From positions 1 through 64,000 of the forward strand of contig JACRNY010000005.1 of NCBI GenBank assembly GCA_016214695.1: 64,000 nt of DNA, written 5' to 3'. The stretch is from Nitrosomonadales bacterium. GTDB lineage: Bacteria > Pseudomonadota > Gammaproteobacteria > Burkholderiales > Gallionellaceae. The notes beneath the pieces are model-generated. The model did not search any database. It was given only the letters and a program-made list of their open reading frames with translations, and was not told the DNA's origin. Below are positions 22,378 to 30,100 of the stretch, piece after piece. A program made the translations under genes and the position numbers. The first letter of the stretch is position 1. Every line of letters starts with the position of its first letter.

Positions 22378-23244
22378 ATGAGCGACCAGCACGTCAACCT
22401 GAAAGCAGCCGTCCGCAATCTGAACAGCCTGCCCGCGATGCCGGTGATCGCGCAAAAACTGCTGGCGCTCAAACTGGACAGCGAAGAAGGCGAACGGCAG
22501 ATGATGATGCTGATCTCGCAGGATCCGACGATCTCCGCCAAGATCATCGGTCTGGCGAATTCGCCGTTGCTCGGCGCCACCCGCAAGATCGCGGCGATCA
22601 AGGATGCCGCCATGCTGCTGGGCCTGACCCGCGTGAAGTCTGTCGCCACCGGCATCGCCGTCATGTCGCTGGTGAACAAACCCATTGGCCGCTTCGATCC
22701 TCAGGAGCTGTGGATGCATAACCTGGGTGTGGCCTTCGCCATGCTGCCGGTGGTGCGGGCCATGCCTGCCAGAAGCCGCCCGCAGGATGACATGATCTTC
22801 CTCGCCGGCATGCTGCACGACATCGGCTACCTTGCACTTGCCCATCTGGATGTGCAGCGCAGCGATGACCTGCATACCCGTTTTGTCATCGAACCGGAAA
22901 GGTCGTGCATCGAGATCGAACGCGAGCTGCTGGAAGTGACGCACGATGAACTGGGTGCGGAACTGGCAAAACACTGGAACCTGCCCGAGGAGATCGTTGC
23001 TGTGATCCGCTACCACCACACGCCGGATGTCGAGGAAGCCAGCAACGCCCAACCGCTGGTGCGCATCGTCAACATCACCGAAAGGCTGATCCCTTCATTT
23101 GGAATGCGAGAGTTCGTTGGCGACAGCGTCGCTCCCGAAGAGTGGGCAGCGCTGGGGATCGACCCCGAGCGCGCCGAAGACATAACCGCTCAGGCGGTAG
23201 AGCAGGCAGAGCAGGCGACACAGTTCGCCAGTTCGTTCAACTGA
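22378..23244 (+). CDS. HDOD domain protein
   Basis: A 288-residue soluble protein with one HDOD domain over residues about 17-215 (LNSLPAMPVIAQKLLALKL, DPTISAKIIGLANSP, MLHDIGYLAL, HWNLPEEIVAVIRYHH). HDOD proteins lack the full HD metal site and act as scaffolds in two-component, motility or c-di-GMP signalling. There is no effector domain. Its stop overlaps the end of the convergent CZB protein gene by eight bases. Confidence 0.9.
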   Translation: MSDQHVNLKAAVRNLNSLPAMPVIAQKLLALKLDSEEGERQMMMLISQDPTISAKIIGLANSPLLGATRKIAAIKDAAMLLGLTRVKSVATGIAVMSLVNKPIGRFDPQELWMHNLGVAFAMLPVVRAMPARSRPQDDMIFLAGMLHDIGYLALAHLDVQRSDDLHTRFVIEPERSCIEIERELLEVTHDELGAELAKHWNLPEEIVAVIRYHHTPDVEEASNAQPLVRIVNITERLIPSFGMREFVGDSVAPEEWAALGIDPERAEDITAQAVEQAEQATQFASSFN

Positions 23245-23692
23245 CGCTCCAGACCTGCTTGTTGATCGACTCGTTCAACTCGGTGATGGCGATCAGCACG
23301 CGCCGCAACGACTGGGACAATTCATCCTTGCGCATGCGCTCGGCAGAGATCCAGCTGCCGGCCTGAATCATCGCCAGGACTTCGGAAGCCAGAAGGTGGA
23401 ATTCGGTGTGAGCCTCCTGCAAACGCGCGAAAGCGCGCAACTGGCCGAAGCGGGATATGCCGACGCCTTTCAGCCACCGCTCCAATTCGCAACATTGCCC
23501 CAACTCGGTGAGATCCGAGATCGACTGCGGCAATTCACCGTGTACAAAATCCTTCACGCGGCCGAAGAACAGCACATGCGACTCCGCGACACTGACGAAA
23601 TCGATCCCAGCCGGCGTGGTGGCGCGAGTCGGTTCGGTATGCACCGGCAGTCTGCCGATCTCTTGTACCATTCCTGCGCTGACGAGTTGCAT
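23237..23692 (-). CDS. Stand-alone CZB (chemoreceptor zinc-binding) domain protein
   Basis: A 151-residue protein. The CZB ligand pattern is visible: H39 (ESHVLFFGRVKDF), C68 (QCCELERWLKG) and H95 with H99 (EAHTEFHLL). CZB domains bind zinc with three His and one Cys and sense zinc or hypochlorous acid, normally attached to chemoreceptors or diguanylate cyclases. Here it stands alone with a short N-terminal segment. AAGGAG precedes the ATG. It is convergent with the HDOD gene, sharing eight bases. Confidence 0.8.
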   Translation of the reverse strand: MQLVSAGMVQEIGRLPVHTEPTRATTPAGIDFVSVAESHVLFFGRVKDFVHGELPQSISDLTELGQCCELERWLKGVGISRFGQLRAFARLQEAHTEFHLLASEVLAMIQAGSWISAERMRKDELSQSLRRVLIAITELNESINKQVWSVS

Positions 23693-23842
23693 GACGATCT
23701 CCTTGAATTTCGTTTCCAGATGCCCGCATTGTCTGCTTGCGCATGGTGGTGAAACAATATGCCGTACGTACTAGACCGTGCCTATACCTCCGCCCTGCAT
23801 ATCTATACCTTATCTAGTCCGCAGACCGCCAAGTCACATGCC

Positions 23843-23851
23843 TGTTATAAT
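23843..23851 (+). promoter_or_regulatory. Extended -10 promoter before the dacC-like operon
   Basis: TGTTATAAT gives a TG extension plus a perfect TATAAT, about 70 nt before the start codon. No good -35 is seen at 17 nt, which an extended -10 can tolerate. Confidence 0.5.
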
Positions 23852-23922
23852 TCGCATGCCGCAGTTCAAGTTCCACAAGATCCGCGCAAAGCCGACTTTC
23901 ACCACCAACCTGTTGATCCAAT

Positions 23923-25050
23923 ATGAAGTTCTTTCAGATACTGCTTTTCTCCCTGTTTCCCGCACTGGCATTCTCCCAACCGCAAACCCCACCCGCCCCT
24001 GCAGCCAATTCGTATGCGCTGTATGACTACACCAGCGGACAATTCCTGGTCGAGCAGAATGGGAATGGACATATCCCTCCCGCGCACCTGACCAAACTGA
24101 TGACGGCCTATGTCGTGTTCGGCGCGATCAAGCAGGGCAAACTGTCGCTCACCCAGCGCCTCATGCCCTCGGCCTATGCGACGCGCCTGCAAACCGAAGA
24201 ATCGCGCATGTTCCTGGGGGCCGGCAAGGAAGTGACCGTGGAAGAGCTGCTGCGTGGGTTGATCGTCCAGTCCGCCAACGACGCGGCACGCGTGCTGGCC
24301 GAGGCGATCGCCAATCACGAGATGGCGCTGGCCGACACGATGAACAGCGAGGCCCAGCGACTGGGGCTCAAGGACACACACTTCGTCAACGCCACCGGCC
24401 TGCCCGATGCGCAGCACTACAGCAGCGCGCATGACCTGGCCCTGATCGCCGCCGCACTGATCCGCGATTTCCCCGAGTTCTATTACATCTACGCCCAGCG
24501 CGAGTACCAGTACAACGGCATCAACCAGTTCAACCGCAACCGTCTGCTCTGGCTCGATCCCTTCGTGGACGGTCTGGCGACGGGCCACACCGCGACCGAT
24601 GACTTCTACCTGATCGCCTCGGCCAAGCGCGACGAGCGCCGCCTGATCTCGGTGGTGCTCGGCACCACCACCGAAAAGCTGCGCAACAGCGAAAGCCAGC
24701 GCCTGCTGAACCACGGCTTCCAGAACTTCGAGGCCATCAAGCTCTATCCCAAGGAACAGGTCGTCAACACCAAGCGCATCTGGAAAGGCACCTCCAGCAA
24801 CCTGAACATCGGCTTCCGCACGGATCGCTACATCACCATTCCCAAGGGCCAGCGTGATGCACTCAAAGCCACACTGGAGACCCGGCAGCCCATCCTCGCC
24901 CCGGTCAACCGCGGCCAGCAGATCGGCATCCTGCACCTCAAGCTGAACGATGAACCGTATCTCGACCTGCCGCTCGTTGCACTGGACGATATCCGCCTGG
25001 CGAATGTATTCTCACGGGGCGTGGACAACATCCGGTTGCTGTTCCAATAA
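23923..25050 (+). CDS. PBP5/DacC-like protein with two catalytic residues lost (pseudoenzyme)
   Basis: The 375-residue exported protein aligns along its whole length with the D-Ala-D-Ala carboxypeptidases PBP5/PBP6 (S11 family), including the C-terminal PBP5 domain (TIPKGQRDALKATL). The active site is altered: the nucleophile of SxxK is H55 (PAHLTK, codon CAC at 24085) and the Lys of KTG is A219 (DGLATGHT, codon GCG at 24577). SxN is intact (S117-A-N). Known S11 enzymes need both residues, so catalysis is very unlikely. The terminal amphipathic anchor is also short. It is first in an operon with D-amino acid transaminase, ybeD and lipB. Confidence 0.88.
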   Translation: MKFFQILLFSLFPALAFSQPQTPPAPAANSYALYDYTSGQFLVEQNGNGHIPPAHLTKLMTAYVVFGAIKQGKLSLTQRLMPSAYATRLQTEESRMFLGAGKEVTVEELLRGLIVQSANDAARVLAEAIANHEMALADTMNSEAQRLGLKDTHFVNATGLPDAQHYSSAHDLALIAAALIRDFPEFYYIYAQREYQYNGINQFNRNRLLWLDPFVDGLATGHTATDDFYLIASAKRDERRLISVVLGTTTEKLRNSESQRLLNHGFQNFEAIKLYPKEQVVNTKRIWKGTSSNLNIGFRTDRYITIPKGQRDALKATLETRQPILAPVNRGQQIGILHLKLNDEPYLDLPLVALDDIRLANVFSRGVDNIRLLFQ

Positions 25051-25060
25051 GGAGCAAGGC

Positions 25061-25915
25061 ATGGCCATCTATCTCAACGGTTCCTTCATGCCCATCGAGG
25101 ACGCGAAGGTATCGGTGCTGGATCGTGGCTTCATCTTCGGCGACGGCGTGTATGAGGTCATCCCCGTCTATTCGCGCCGCGCCTTTCGTATGGCCGAACA
25201 CCTCAAGCGCCTGCAACACAGCCTGGACGGCATCAAGCTGGCGAACCCGCACAGCGAGAGCGAGTGGAGCGACATCCTCAATGAACTCATCCAGCGCAAC
25301 GAACCCGAAGACCAATACCTCTATCTGCACATCACGCGCGGCGTCGCCAAGCGCGACCATGCGTTTCCCGTGCCGCCGGTAGCGCCCACCGTGTTCGTGC
25401 TCAGCAACCCGCTCACCACACCGCCGCCCGAATTGCTGCAAAGCGGCATCGCCTGCATCACCGTGCAGGACAACCGCTGGCTGCGCTGCGACATCAAGTC
25501 CATCGCGCTGCTGCCCAACGTGCTGCTGCGCCAGGCCGCGGTCGAAGCCGGCTGCGCCGAAGCCATCCTCATCCGCGACGATGCCTTCCTCACCGAAGGT
25601 GCGGCCAGCAACATCTTTGTGGTGAAAGACGGCAAGCTGCTTGCCCCGCCCAAGGACAACCTCATGCTGCCCGGCATCACCTACGACGTCATCCTCGAAC
25701 TCGCCGCTGCCAACGGCATCCCGCATGAAGTGCGGCGCGTGTCGAAGGCTGAAGTGTTCAATGCCGACGAATTGCTGCTGACCTCTTCCACCAGGGAAGT
25801 GCTGGCCATCACCACGCTCGACGGCAAGCCCGTGGGCAACGGCAAGCCCGGCGCGATGTTCGCCAGGCTGCATAAGCTGTATCAAACCTTCAAACGCGAA
25901 GTGATGCGCAAATGA
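25061..25915 (+). CDS. dat: D-amino acid aminotransferase (class IV PLP enzyme)
   Basis: A 284-residue enzyme interconverting D-alanine/pyruvate and D-glutamate/2-oxoglutarate. [17 protein letters not shown], the PLP Lys K146 ([13 protein letters not shown]) and [10 protein letters not shown] are class IV signatures and the spacing suits D-AAT better than branched-chain transaminases. AAGGAG sits seven bases before the ATG at 25061, ten bases after the dacC-like stop. Its place beside a D,D-carboxypeptidase homologue points to D-alanine recycling for the wall. Confidence 0.9.
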
Positions 25916-26181
25916 TCGATCCGAAAGACTCCCTCATCGAGTACCCCTGCGACTTCCCGCTCAAGGTCTTCGGCGAAGCCAAGCCGGATTTTGCCCGGGC
26001 CATCGCCACCGTCGTGCAGGTGCACGCACCGGATTTCGATGCTGCCAGCATCGAGATGCGCAGCAGCACAGGCGCGAAATACCTCAGCCTCACCTGCACC
26101 ATCCGCGCCACCTCGCGCGAACAGCTCGACAACCTGTACCGCGACTTGAGCAGTCATCCGATGGTAAAGATGGTGCTATGA
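25912..26181 (+). CDS. ybeD: YbeD/DUF493 family protein
   Basis: An 89-residue alpha-beta protein: [16 protein letters not shown] at the start and [15 protein letters not shown] at the end are typical. YbeD proteins are small regulatory-fold proteins almost always encoded next to lipB, and are thought to influence lipoate metabolism, though no activity is proven. The gene overlaps both neighbours by four bases. Confidence 0.92.
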
Positions 26182-26825
26182 CTCCCCACCTGCACGTGCG
26201 CGCGATCGGCATGGTCGACTACGAGCCGACCTGGCGCGACATGCAGCGCTTCACTGCCGAACGCACCCCCGACACTGTGGACGAGATATGGCTGGTGCAG
26301 CACCCGCCCACCTACACGCAAGGCCAGGCCGGCAAACCGGAGCACCTGCTCAACCCTACCTCCATCCCTGTCGTGAAGATAGACCGCGGCGGCCAGATCA
26401 CCTACCACGGCCCCGGCCAGATCGTCGCCTACCTGCTGCTCGACCTGCGCCGCTGGAAGATCAACGTGCGCGAACTGGTGCGCCTGATGGAACAGGCCGT
26501 CATCGACCTGCTCGCCGAATATGGCGTGAAAGCCGAAGGCCGCGAGGATGCGCCCGGCGTGTATGTGAACGACGCCAAGATCGCCGCGCTGGGCCTGAAG
26601 ATAAAGAACGGCTGCAGCTATCACGGCCTCTCGTTCAACGTCGACATGGACCTCAGCCCGTTCGCCAACATCAACCCCTGCGGCTATCAGGGGCTGAAGG
26701 TCACACAGTGCGTAGGACTCGGCATCACCGTGCCGCTGGAAGAACTGCAAGCCGAACTCACGCAGAACCTGGTGCACGGCCTGCAGCATCACTTCGAAAG
26801 AAAGCGCCAGCTCGAACAGCAATGA
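26178..26825 (+). CDS. lipB: Octanoyl-(lipoyl carrier protein) transferase
   Basis: LipB moves octanoate from ACP to lipoyl domains, the first step of lipoate synthesis. The 215-residue product shows [15 protein letters not shown], the Lys of [12 protein letters not shown] and the acyl-thioester cysteine C168 in INPCGYQGL. Overlap ATGA with ybeD. The lipoyl synthase gene lipA, which usually follows, is not here; a different small gene takes its place. Confidence 0.96.
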
Positions 26826-27169
26826 CGGATGTTGCTGCCAATCCTTTCACCGCCAAATGGTCGGCATCAGGCACCAATCTCTGCCTCGGCCAGTGGGAGA
26901 TCTCCTATCTCGGGAAGCCGCTTGAACTCGATGCGGAACACCGCGAGCACGACATGGGCACCCATGCCATCTACAGCTTCATCTTCCCCGACGATGAGAT
27001 GTACGCCGAAGGCCTGCCCGAAGACGAATGGATCGTCGCCAACCTCGACTGGCTGACCCACCTCTTCATCGCGAACGACATCCCGACCGACGAGGCGAAT
27101 TTCCGTTTCTTCTATCAGGCGGTGAACAGACAGGACTGGCGGTGCGGGAGTTGCGGGGGATGTATCTGA
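26822..27169 (+). CDS. Small protein with CxxCxxC tail, beside lipB
   Basis: A 115-residue protein of no family I recognise. It overlaps the lipB stop by four bases (ATGA), so it is translationally coupled. Most of it is an acidic globular sequence ([30 protein letters not shown]). The striking part is the extreme C-terminus, [10 protein letters not shown], which places C108, C111 and C114 as CxxCxxC on a flexible glycine-rich end; a further Cys is C21. Such tails bind Fe-S clusters or zinc or relay thiols. A role in lipoate assembly is only suggested by position. Confidence 0.65.
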
Positions 27170-27185
27170 AGCATCCTGCTCGGGA

Positions 27186-30100
27186 TCATTGCACCTCGCT
27201 GAACACTCCATCAGCAAACAGTAGCGCACACCTGACCGCTCTGCCCGCATACACCGCCTGCATCGCCGCCCGGTATTCCTGCATCTGCGCACGATATCGT
27301 GCCGCATCTTCCGAATCGCCCAGCTTGTAATCCAGCACCCACACTTCGTCATCGAACTCGACCAAGCGGTCGATGCGTTTCAGTTCGCCCTGGGCGTTGA
27401 CGTAGGGCATCTCGTTGCAGGCGGCGCGGTATTGCGCCGTGTCGAAGAAGCGGGCGAGTTGCGGTGAGACGAGTAGGCCTTGCGCCTGCTGCCAGAGGAT
27501 TTCGATCTCGTCGGCGGGGATGGCGAGACGGTGCTGCAGTTCGGTCTTGTCGCGCGCCCCTTCCGTCAGGTGTTGCAGCAGGGCGTGCAGCCAGATGCCG
27601 CGCTGTTGCTGAGCGGTGTTGCGGGCGGCGCGTTTGCCGGTGGGGGTGATGGGGGGTAATACGACTTCCGTTCGCCTTGCTCCTGCGGCTGCACTCAGGG
27701 CTGAAGGCGATGTCGAATCCTGCTTTGAGTCACTTGGACATTCACCCTTCGACGGGCCTGTCCTGAGCCCAGTCGAAGGGCTCAGGGCGAATGGTTCTTT
27801 TTGATCATGTATCACCGCCGCGATGCGCGCGTACCAGGTGACCTGTTTAGCCTCCCTCGCCCCCTGATTACCGCTGACGATGAGCGCCTGCTGTGCGCGG
27901 GTCATGGCGACGTAGAGCAGGTTCATCTCTTCGCGCGCCTGTTCGGCGGCGTCCTGCTCGAACAGCGGCACGCGTTTCTTGCCGCGCGAGGCTTGATCGG
28001 TGTAGAGCGAGAAGTGCAGCGGCTGCGCTTCGTGCGTCGGCCAATCCAGCAGCACGTCGCTGCCGTCGCGATTTTTCTTTTCCGCGTTCGCGTCCAGCAG
28101 CCAGACGATGGGCGCTTCCAGACCTTTCGATTCATGTACGGTATAGATACGCACCGCATCCCCTGCGGTGCCGAGCTTGCCCTCATCCGGCGCATCGTCG
28201 CTGCTGTCGCGCAGTTCGCGCAACTCCTGCAGAAAGCGCGGCAGGCTGGGGTAGCGGCCGGCATCCACACTCAGTGCGATCTCCATGAAGGCGTGCAGGT
28301 TGGCGGTGACCTTGGCGCGCAACTCGGGCGGCAGCACGGCGCTGTAGCGCGCGATCACATCGCCCTCGAAATAGATGCGGTCGAGCAGATCGTGCACGGG
28401 GAGCTTGTCGGCGAGGGCGAGCCAGTTCTTCAGTAAAGTGGCGGCGCGCTGAAGTGCGGGCGATGGTTCTGGCAGTTGTTGCAGGCGGGACCACCAGGAA
28501 AGGCGAGTGCCGAGTACTGAGTGCTGAGCCTCTGCGCCCCCCTCGCTACTCGACACTCCGCACTCGACACTGGTTTGCGCCAGCTGTATCAGGTCTTCAT
28601 CGCTGCACGCAAAGATGGGCGTGCGCAGTACCTGCGCCAGCGCAAGATCGGCGAAGGGCGTGATGAGGAACATCAGCAGGGCCTGCACGTCTTCCGCCTC
28701 CAGCGTATCGAGCAGACCGCCGCGCCGCGAGCTGATGAAGGGGAGGTGTCGCGCGCGCAGGGCTTCTTCGTATACCGCAAGGTGGGTGCGGCCTCGCACC
28801 AACACCATGATGTCGCCGTAACGGGCGCGGCGGGTTTCGCCTTCGTCGTTCACCGACCATTCGCTGACGATGGTTTGCAGTTGTTCGGCGAATTGTTCGG
28901 CTTCCTTTTGGCGCGCGCCTTCTTCGGTCTCGGGTCTGGCTGTTGTGATGGGATCGCGCAGAACGAGCGAAACGGTTTCCCCCTCACCCCCATCCCCTCT
29001 CCCAGAGGGCGAGGGGAGCAAAGCATCGGCGATGCACAGCGGCAGCACCAGCACATGGCCGGGCAATTCTTTCTGGTGCGTCTGGTGCTCGACGAACTCG
29101 AAGCCGTCCGGCTGCTCGCGAAACACGGCGTTCACCGCATCGACGATGGGCTGGGCGTTACGGCGCGTGAGGCTGTTGCCCAGGGTCGCGGCATCAAAAT
29201 GTTCCTGCAGGTATTCGCGCGCCACACCGAACAGGCGCGCGTCGGCGCGGCGGAAACGGTAGATGGATTGTTTGGGGTCGCCGACGATGAACACGGTGGG
29301 TTGCGATTCCACCGCGACGGCCGCATCGAACCACGCGCGCAGGATCTGCCACTGCAGCGGGTTGGTGTCCTGGAACTCGTCGAGCAGCACATGGCGATAG
29401 CGGCTGTCGAGCTTGTACTGCATGGTCTCGGCGTGTTCGCTCTGCTGCAGCAGACGGCACAACTGCCATTCGAGGTCGGAGAAATCCATCTGCTGTTTCT
29501 GTGCCTTGAGCGCTTGGTAGCGGTCAAGGAAGGCGATACCGCAATGCAGCACCGCTTCGTTCAGACGCCAGGCCTGCTGTTCTGCATGCCAATCCTGCGC
29601 AGCCTGCAGGCTATCCTGCAATGCGGAGAGCGTGGCAGCGAAGGCTGCCTCGTTCTGGTTCTTGGTCGACTTCAGCTTGCGCGGCTCTCCCGCCAGCGTG
29701 AACAGCTGGCCCCACACCGCGCTGAAACGCAGCCCGGGCTCGGTATCCGTCCAGGAGCGCTCCAGTTCCGAGGCCTTTTCCTTCTGTTTGTCTGTGCCGT
29801 TGCTCGCATATTGCAGCACGAAGGCGAAGAACACTTCTTCGCTGTTGCCGCACATGCCCCAATCCTCAAGCGCATCGACATCCATATCCACCGCCAGATC
29901 AGCGCGCAGCTTGTCCAGTGCGAACACCAGGGCATCCTGTCGCCCCTGGGTATACGCCCACCATTCGGCACGCTTGCCGAGGAAGTTGAACAGCAGCTTG
30001 CGTGCGGTGAACAGGCCGCATTCGCCGAACAGCCATTGCATGCGCGTGGCTTCGACACTGTCCGGCTGCTTGCGCATCTGCTCCAGCAGTTCTTCCCAGG

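Follow-up and report, generated by a model that had tools for sequence, protein, structure and literature searches.

A PBP5-type protein without its nucleophile serine and KTG lysine, a probable old pseudoenzyme of a Sideroxydans-like genus

A PBP5-type gene with two catalytic residues replaced

Can a lineage keep a D,D-carboxypeptidase of the PBP5 type after its catalytic residues have gone? The question is raised by an open reading frame of 375 codons, with no internal stop, at 23923-25050 (+ strand) of the 64,000-nucleotide stretch of DNA analysed here (the window). A preliminary description had read HLTK in place of SxxK, ATG in place of KTG, and an unchanged SAN motif, and translation confirmed this: H55 is encoded by CAC (24085-24087, context PPAHLTKLM) and A219 by GCG (24577-24579, context VDGLATGHT). 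The same description had called the gene intact and PBP5/DacC-like, in agreement with Pfam matches to Peptidase_S11 (5.2e-66, residues 22-249) and PBP5_C (1.2e-18, residues 269-357). Residues 18-357 align to the solved PBP5-type carboxypeptidase 4k91, the catalytic columns reading S to H and K to A, and the best-matching solved sequences were D-Ala-D-Ala carboxypeptidases of the PBP5/PBP6 kind. Residue 118 is alanine, where 125 of 128 active rows of our alignment carry glycine (SGN). Judged by sequence, the protein is a PBP5/DacC-type S11 protein by descent which fails two defining features of a D,D-carboxypeptidase, the SxxK serine and the KTG lysine, and has K58 and SAN in place. Features of the locus are collected in Table 1.

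Table 1. Features of the locus and the evidence for each
Feature	Coordinates	Strand	Basis
Pseudo-DacC, S11/PBP5-type, without catalytic Ser and KTG Lys	23923..25050	+	Translation, Pfam, alignments
Probable signal peptide, hydrophobic N terminus, about residues 1-18	23923..23976	+	Sequence reading alone
SxxK motif, here HLTK, H55-K58	24085..24096	+	Translation, homologue alignment
SxN motif, SAN, residues 117-119, retained	24271..24279	+	Homologue alignment
KTG motif, here ATG, residues 219-221	24577..24585	+	Translation, homologue alignment
PBP5_C domain, residues 269-357	24727..24993	+	Pfam
C-terminal helix, residues 362-374, conserved, probable membrane anchor	25006..25044	+	Predicted model; anchoring inferred from PBP5
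Class IV aminotransferase, D-amino acid transaminase-like (dat), next gene	25061..25915	+	ORF list, domain match
DUF493 (YbeD-like) gene	25912..26181	+	ORF list, domain match
LplA/B catalytic-domain gene, LipB-like	26178..26825	+	ORF list, domain match

A structure prediction had been proposed in the preliminary description. The AlphaFold model, built on 61 aligned sequences, has a mean pLDDT of 91.4, and Foldseek placed it on PBP5/PBP6 structures, among them Pseudomonas aeruginosa PBP5 (4k91_B; TM 0.86 query-normalised, 0.94 otherwise; 45% identity). The predicted structure has a PBP5 fold; it bears on the fold, not on the binding of ligands. Domain order, predicted fold, SxN motif, SxxK lysine and a predicted C-terminal helix are shared with PBP5 and PBP6 (DacA/DacC), from which the protein differs in having no nucleophile serine, no KTG lysine and further changes in the active site. 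The same two residues are lost in the E. coli variants PBP5(S44G) and DacA(K242R), each of which alone abolishes carboxypeptidase activity. In passages of PMC2909392, S44G abolishes activity and penicillin binding and is reported not to complement cell shape; in passages of PMC9430164, K242R, referred there to a paper on lysine-213, has no carboxypeptidase activity, still binds penicillin G and is reported not to complement ampicillin sensitivity. Those variants are laboratory-made, whereas the losses described below are natural, old and common to the species of a genus.

The preliminary description had also linked the gene to a D-amino acid transaminase, and the linkage was found throughout: a same-strand dat gene lies downstream in 27/27 loci tested (26 genomes of the genus and L153; L013, L020, L033, L039 and L050 were not part of this check), and in 25 of them it starts 10-15 bases past the gene by the script's measure. 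The divergent upstream gene (23240-23692, - strand) encodes a short protein whose domain is of the chemoreceptor zinc-binding (CZB) type. A search for plasmid relatives of 23000-27000 gave no match, and a promoter and terminator scan of 23600-27500 gave nothing above chance.

Catalytic positions and the order of their loss

The window genome (2.66 Mb, nine contigs, 99.97% complete) belongs to a genus, g1, that by sequence is a Sideroxydans-like genus of Gallionellaceae, since its locus L026 is identical over residues 100-210 to L058 of Sideroxydans sp. DeMMO3_12. Over the same residues L135 of the neighbouring genus g37 is identical to L057 of Gallionellaceae bacterium palsa_1006; named loci were taken from the best 80 among the matches listed. 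Sideroxydans and Palsa-1006 are treated under iron-oxidiser genomes in a passage of PMC10734482. We found the gene in 31 of the 34 genomes of the genus. No match at 1e-30 was obtained in G003, G018 and G024 (89, 62 and 79% complete), so some members may have lost it.

Residue 219 was never lysine in the 30 readable copies out of 31, being Gln in 17, Ala in 12 and Ser in one. Residue 55 was Ser in 17 of the 31 copies, His in eight (the G027 copy among them, in which this part lies in a separate frame upstream), Gln in four and Ala in two. The preliminary description had asked whether H55 and A219 are conserved among relatives; neither is, as such. It had also named near relatives that keep both serine and lysine as evidence for a recent mutation or sequence error, and here the KTG lysine was present in 0/30 copies and the nucleophile was gone from 14/31. 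An error of sequencing or assembly, or a mutation confined to one strain, has next to no chance of accounting for the losses and is rejected, since they appear in one genome after another of the genus, the single-contig G004, G023 and G028 among them. The frames that could be read were open, except at contig ends and at one break in G027; a frameshift there is unsupported, the change of frame falling at an unread base.

K58, S117 and N119 were retained in at least 29/30 or 30/31 readable copies, their codons varying synonymously, and K58 and N119 were replaced in a single genome (G002; ALTQ, SAR). One alternative is an altered enzyme, with S117 or H55 as new nucleophile or base for some other hydrolase activity, or with the copies carrying Gln219 acting as a slow, penicillin-binding acyl-enzyme. 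In its favour, Ser55 is present in 17 genomes, and E. coli DacA K242R binds penicillin while lacking carboxypeptidase activity (passages of PMC9430164). Residual or altered acylation is possible in the Gln subclade defined below, because, of its 17 copies in which both sites could be read, 15 have Ser55, K58, S117 and N119 together. However, no single new residue has been fixed: position 55 is H, Q, A or S and position 219 is A, Q or S across the genus. This variation rules out a fixed new catalytic pair H55/A219 and argues for loss of catalysis, and we consider an altered enzyme unlikely.

Beyond the genus, Ser55, Lys58, Ser117, Asn119 and Lys219 were all present in 123 of 131 distinct rows, the exceptions being L023, L049 (truncated), L052, L069 (the same as L165), L151, L159, L162 and L170. 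Eight pairs of rows, the same or nearly so over residues 100-210, were reduced for the 131 rows and kept in the 128 active rows; L002, L003, L053, L054 and L175-L184 were left out of the alignment. The KTG lysine was retained in 39 of 42 family copies fetched from outside the genus (L023, L031, L049, L135-L152, L154 and L155-L174, picked among the matches listed to cover genera; L049, without its 5' half, was counted only from residue 119 onward), and was missing from L023 (GTG), L165 and L170. In g37 both Ser55 and Lys219 were present in 8/8 copies (L135-L139, L171, L172, and L057 as a duplicate of L135).

Several of these outside copies merit a remark of their own. L165/L069 (G162, genus g36) is an independent degenerate DacC with ALTK, SAD and EIG motifs, a long branch and an extended loop before RMFL, in a genome whose best short-S11 match is just 3e-26. 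Scattered motif changes (MSS with SAS; SxS; MSG) occur in L170 (G062, g29), L159 and L162 (g32), L151 (g39) and L052 (G058, another family). G135 of g32 holds an active DacC (L154, on C124) together with a serine-less, g1-like copy (L153, on C109) that is 83% identical to the window protein; assembly contamination and transfer are both possible origins of the latter.

A maximum-likelihood tree was inferred from 78 rows with the motif columns excluded and without L163, a divergent second copy of G168; the row L020 includes an out-of-frame upstream part, which lengthens its branch. The genus formed one clade (support 100/99, bootstrap/SH-aLRT) adjoining the active clade of g37 with L023, and split into an Ala/Ser subclade of 14 rows and a Gln subclade of 18 rows. 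Ser55 is kept in most Gln-subclade rows and in L012 (SLTK/STS), which branches first within the Ala/Ser subclade. Parsimony requires at least four changes from Lys and three from Ser over the whole tree. Read on the tree, lysine was lost at the base of the genus, in L023, in L165 and in L170, and serine in the Ala/Ser subclade after L012, in the pair L032/L033 and in L165. Because serine persists in L012 and most Gln-subclade rows while the loss of lysine maps to the base of the genus, the tree shows that loss of the KTG lysine preceded that of the nucleophile, which happened twice within the genus. By parsimony a single change at the base removed the lysine, leaving what is now Gln in one subclade and Ala or Ser in the other; the SxxK serine was then lost in the Ala/Ser subclade (to His or Gln) and separately in a Gln-subclade pair (to Ala), and the remainder of the protein was kept under purifying selection.

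Constraint on the protein and on its emptied site

Constraint was estimated with a codon model over residues 28-374, leaving out L013, L020, L032, L033, L039 and L050. Omega was 0.081 for the Ala/Ser subclade (12 rows including L153; 0.075 for its 11 serine-less rows) and 0.088 for the Gln subclade (14 rows), against 0.071, 0.088 and 0.114 in the active clades g37, g32 and g36, values that are approximate because synonymous sites are probably near saturation (several substitutions per codon in the trees). The neighbouring dat gene gave 0.065 (11 rows) and 0.071 (14 rows). By these estimates, overall constraint on the genus copies equals that on active enzymes.

Constraint is not even along the protein. 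In the 128 active rows, 103 positions reach 90% conservation or more. Of these, 14 differ in one subclade of the genus or in both, 12 among the 27 within motif regions versus 2 of 76 elsewhere (Fisher p 7e-7; 3e-4 and 0.011 at stricter cut-offs), p-values that are descriptive because the motif regions (around the three motifs, with loop 92-96) were drawn after the list of changed positions was known. R50, E52, G118, T223 and G227 are among the residues altered in one or both subclades. The active control genera showed three (g37), two (g32) and five (g36) changes among 107-109 conserved positions, with one in the SxxK region in g37 (position 52) and one in g36 (position 56). The lost conserved positions cluster at the catalytic site. 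The earlier statement that the protein shows no other decay was too strong, although 12 of the 14 changes lie in motif regions.

In active clades the KTG segment (residues 216-229) has a mean pairwise identity of 0.83-0.95; in the Gln subclade the figure was 0.71, and in the Ala/Ser subclade 0.58, which made it the most relaxed of the segments measured there. Strand 230-236, which follows, reached 0.75 (Ala/Ser) and 0.69 (Gln) against 0.88-1.00. The SxN region (113-122) stood at 1.00 and 0.93 against 0.93-0.97, and was fully identical in the 12 Ala/Ser-subclade rows despite synonymous codon changes. PBP5_C gave 0.75 and 0.69 against 0.66-0.85, and the last 18 residues (358-375) 0.94 and 0.87 against 0.80-0.98. 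On these identities, one wall of the active site has been released; conservation roughly matches that of active enzymes at the SxN wall, SxxK lysine, C-terminal domain and end helix. Some positions vary among active rows and show a single residue throughout the genus, but no clear gain of constraint was seen outside the site: PBP5_C and the C-terminal end stay within the active-clade range of conservation and so carry no mark of a new contact role.

The main rival to a non-catalytic partner role is that the dead site serves as a decoy or sensor, binding D-Ala-D-Ala stems uncut, either to protect them for use by transpeptidases or to signal their abundance. The retention of K58, S117 and N119 points in this direction, as does the mostly polar character of position 55 (S, H or Q, with Ala in 2/31). 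A comparable protective role, for the fifth D-Ala, has been proposed for E. coli PBP6a in part of PMC5596342. The relaxation of the KTG strand in the Ala/Ser subclade and the changes at R50, E52, G118, T223 and G227 speak against such binding. In PBP structures the KTG strand holds the substrate carboxylate. We regard a pentapeptide decoy or sensor as rather unlikely. Of the earlier suggestion of a selected pseudoenzyme, perhaps a muropeptide-binding regulator, the first half is supported by clade-wide loss and by omega values like those of active clades; the second is the weaker, given the KTG segment (0.58 versus 0.83-0.95), and a protein-protein role may fit better.

Other carboxypeptidases and a possible role as partner

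A search for a second active DacC in the window genome had been suggested. It yielded no second PBP5_C-bearing S11 protein; it did yield a short S11 paralogue and an S13 protein, both with intact motifs. The two further S11 proteins have 266 and 305 amino acids. The shorter (L002/L175, G000:C2:571630-572427) shares the Peptidase_S11 domain with the window protein and differs in its length, its intact SLTK, SAN and KTG motifs, and the lack of a PBP5_C match; by its sequence it is a probable second carboxypeptidase. The longer, with SITK, SEN and KTG, we take to be PbpG-like. The genome also has one S13 protein with STMK, SNN and KTG, and one PF00144 match.

By best match per genome, the short S11 protein was intact in length in 16 of 21 genomes of the genus that are at least 90% complete, was in two pieces in G033, and was not seen in near-complete G004, G014, G019 and G023, each of which has just two S11 matches, one of them the pseudo-DacC. 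Genera whose DacC is active can carry the short protein as well (for example G173 of g37). Full compensation by this paralogue is thus not general. Some of the work may fall to it, but the two proteins are not strictly paired, because the paralogue is unseen in four near-complete genomes that keep the pseudo-DacC. Across the family its distribution is patchy (L002, L176-L184), and G019 (99% complete) showed no S13 match either.

The presence of this paralogue, together with the relaxed KTG segment and strand 230-236, might suggest a gene that is simply decaying after other carboxypeptidases took over, and that is kept for polar effects on the dacC-dat-DUF493-lipB row, which it heads. Yet omega lies inside the active-clade range, frames are open apart from contig ends and the G027 break, and the four genomes without a visible short paralogue keep the gene. 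Moreover, scattered motif-loss copies elsewhere (L162, L165, L170 and L159) have the long branches expected of decay, and the genus lacks them (as does L151; L052 is outside the tree). Relaxed decay is, in our view, very unlikely.

In the reading we favour, the protein has long been a pseudoenzyme; it is probably anchored in the membrane and acts, without catalysis, as a partner of peptidoglycan synthases or of other carboxypeptidases. The clade-wide loss of catalytic residues, its order, the purifying selection and the fold are shown by the sequences and the model; the serine-less copies are very likely inactive, and export, anchoring and partner binding are putative. A membrane-anchored partner is preferred because the parts held in the genus include those for contact and anchoring. 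The one PBP5_C-bearing S11 protein of the window genome would thus have turned into a pseudoenzyme, with pentapeptide trimming left to the short S11 paralogue, where present, and to S13 DacB. The continued conservation of K58, S117 and N119 may mean that the emptied pocket still binds a ligand weakly or has a structural part to play.

By analogy with E. coli DacA, the window protein may act as a scaffold for penicillin-binding proteins: DacA pulls down PBP1a, 1b, 2 and 3 only with its C-terminal domain (passages of PMC9430164), and inactive PBP5 exerts an effect that is absent on deletion (passages of PMC5596342). LytM-domain regulators (EnvC, NlpD, ActS, DipM) are likewise wall-hydrolase folds without catalysis which regulate other hydrolases, according to parts of PMC8416486, PMC10336132 and PMC8360153, but they have an unrelated metallopeptidase fold and known partners, whereas any partner of the window protein is putative. 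Some observations weigh against a partner role. The role of DacA in beta-lactam resistance requires both activity and the C-terminal domain (passages of PMC9430164); dead PBP5 in E. coli is mislocalised and causes bulging (passages of PMC2909392 and PMC5596342); and the conserved K58, S117 and N119 could signal a remaining catalytic or binding role.

It is an old question why cells retain more than one D,D-carboxypeptidase, given their apparent redundancy, and whether PBP5 does more than cut. Searches of the open-licence PMC literature listed no natural S11 pseudoenzyme, and the match joining Sideroxydans with a penicillin-binding protein concerned PBP1c. We suggest, tentatively and at somewhat less than even odds, that a non-catalytic function of PBP5, the placing of peptidoglycan synthases through its C-terminal domain, became its only function across the whole genus. 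If so, the genus would be a natural separation-of-function experiment, in which the KTG lysine and then the nucleophile were stripped away and a partner-binding protein retained. The intermediate subclade, with serine present and KTG lysine gone, reveals the order of loss. The clade makes a non-cutting role of PBP5 testable, as the remaining function of the serine-less protein can hardly be the removal of D-Ala.
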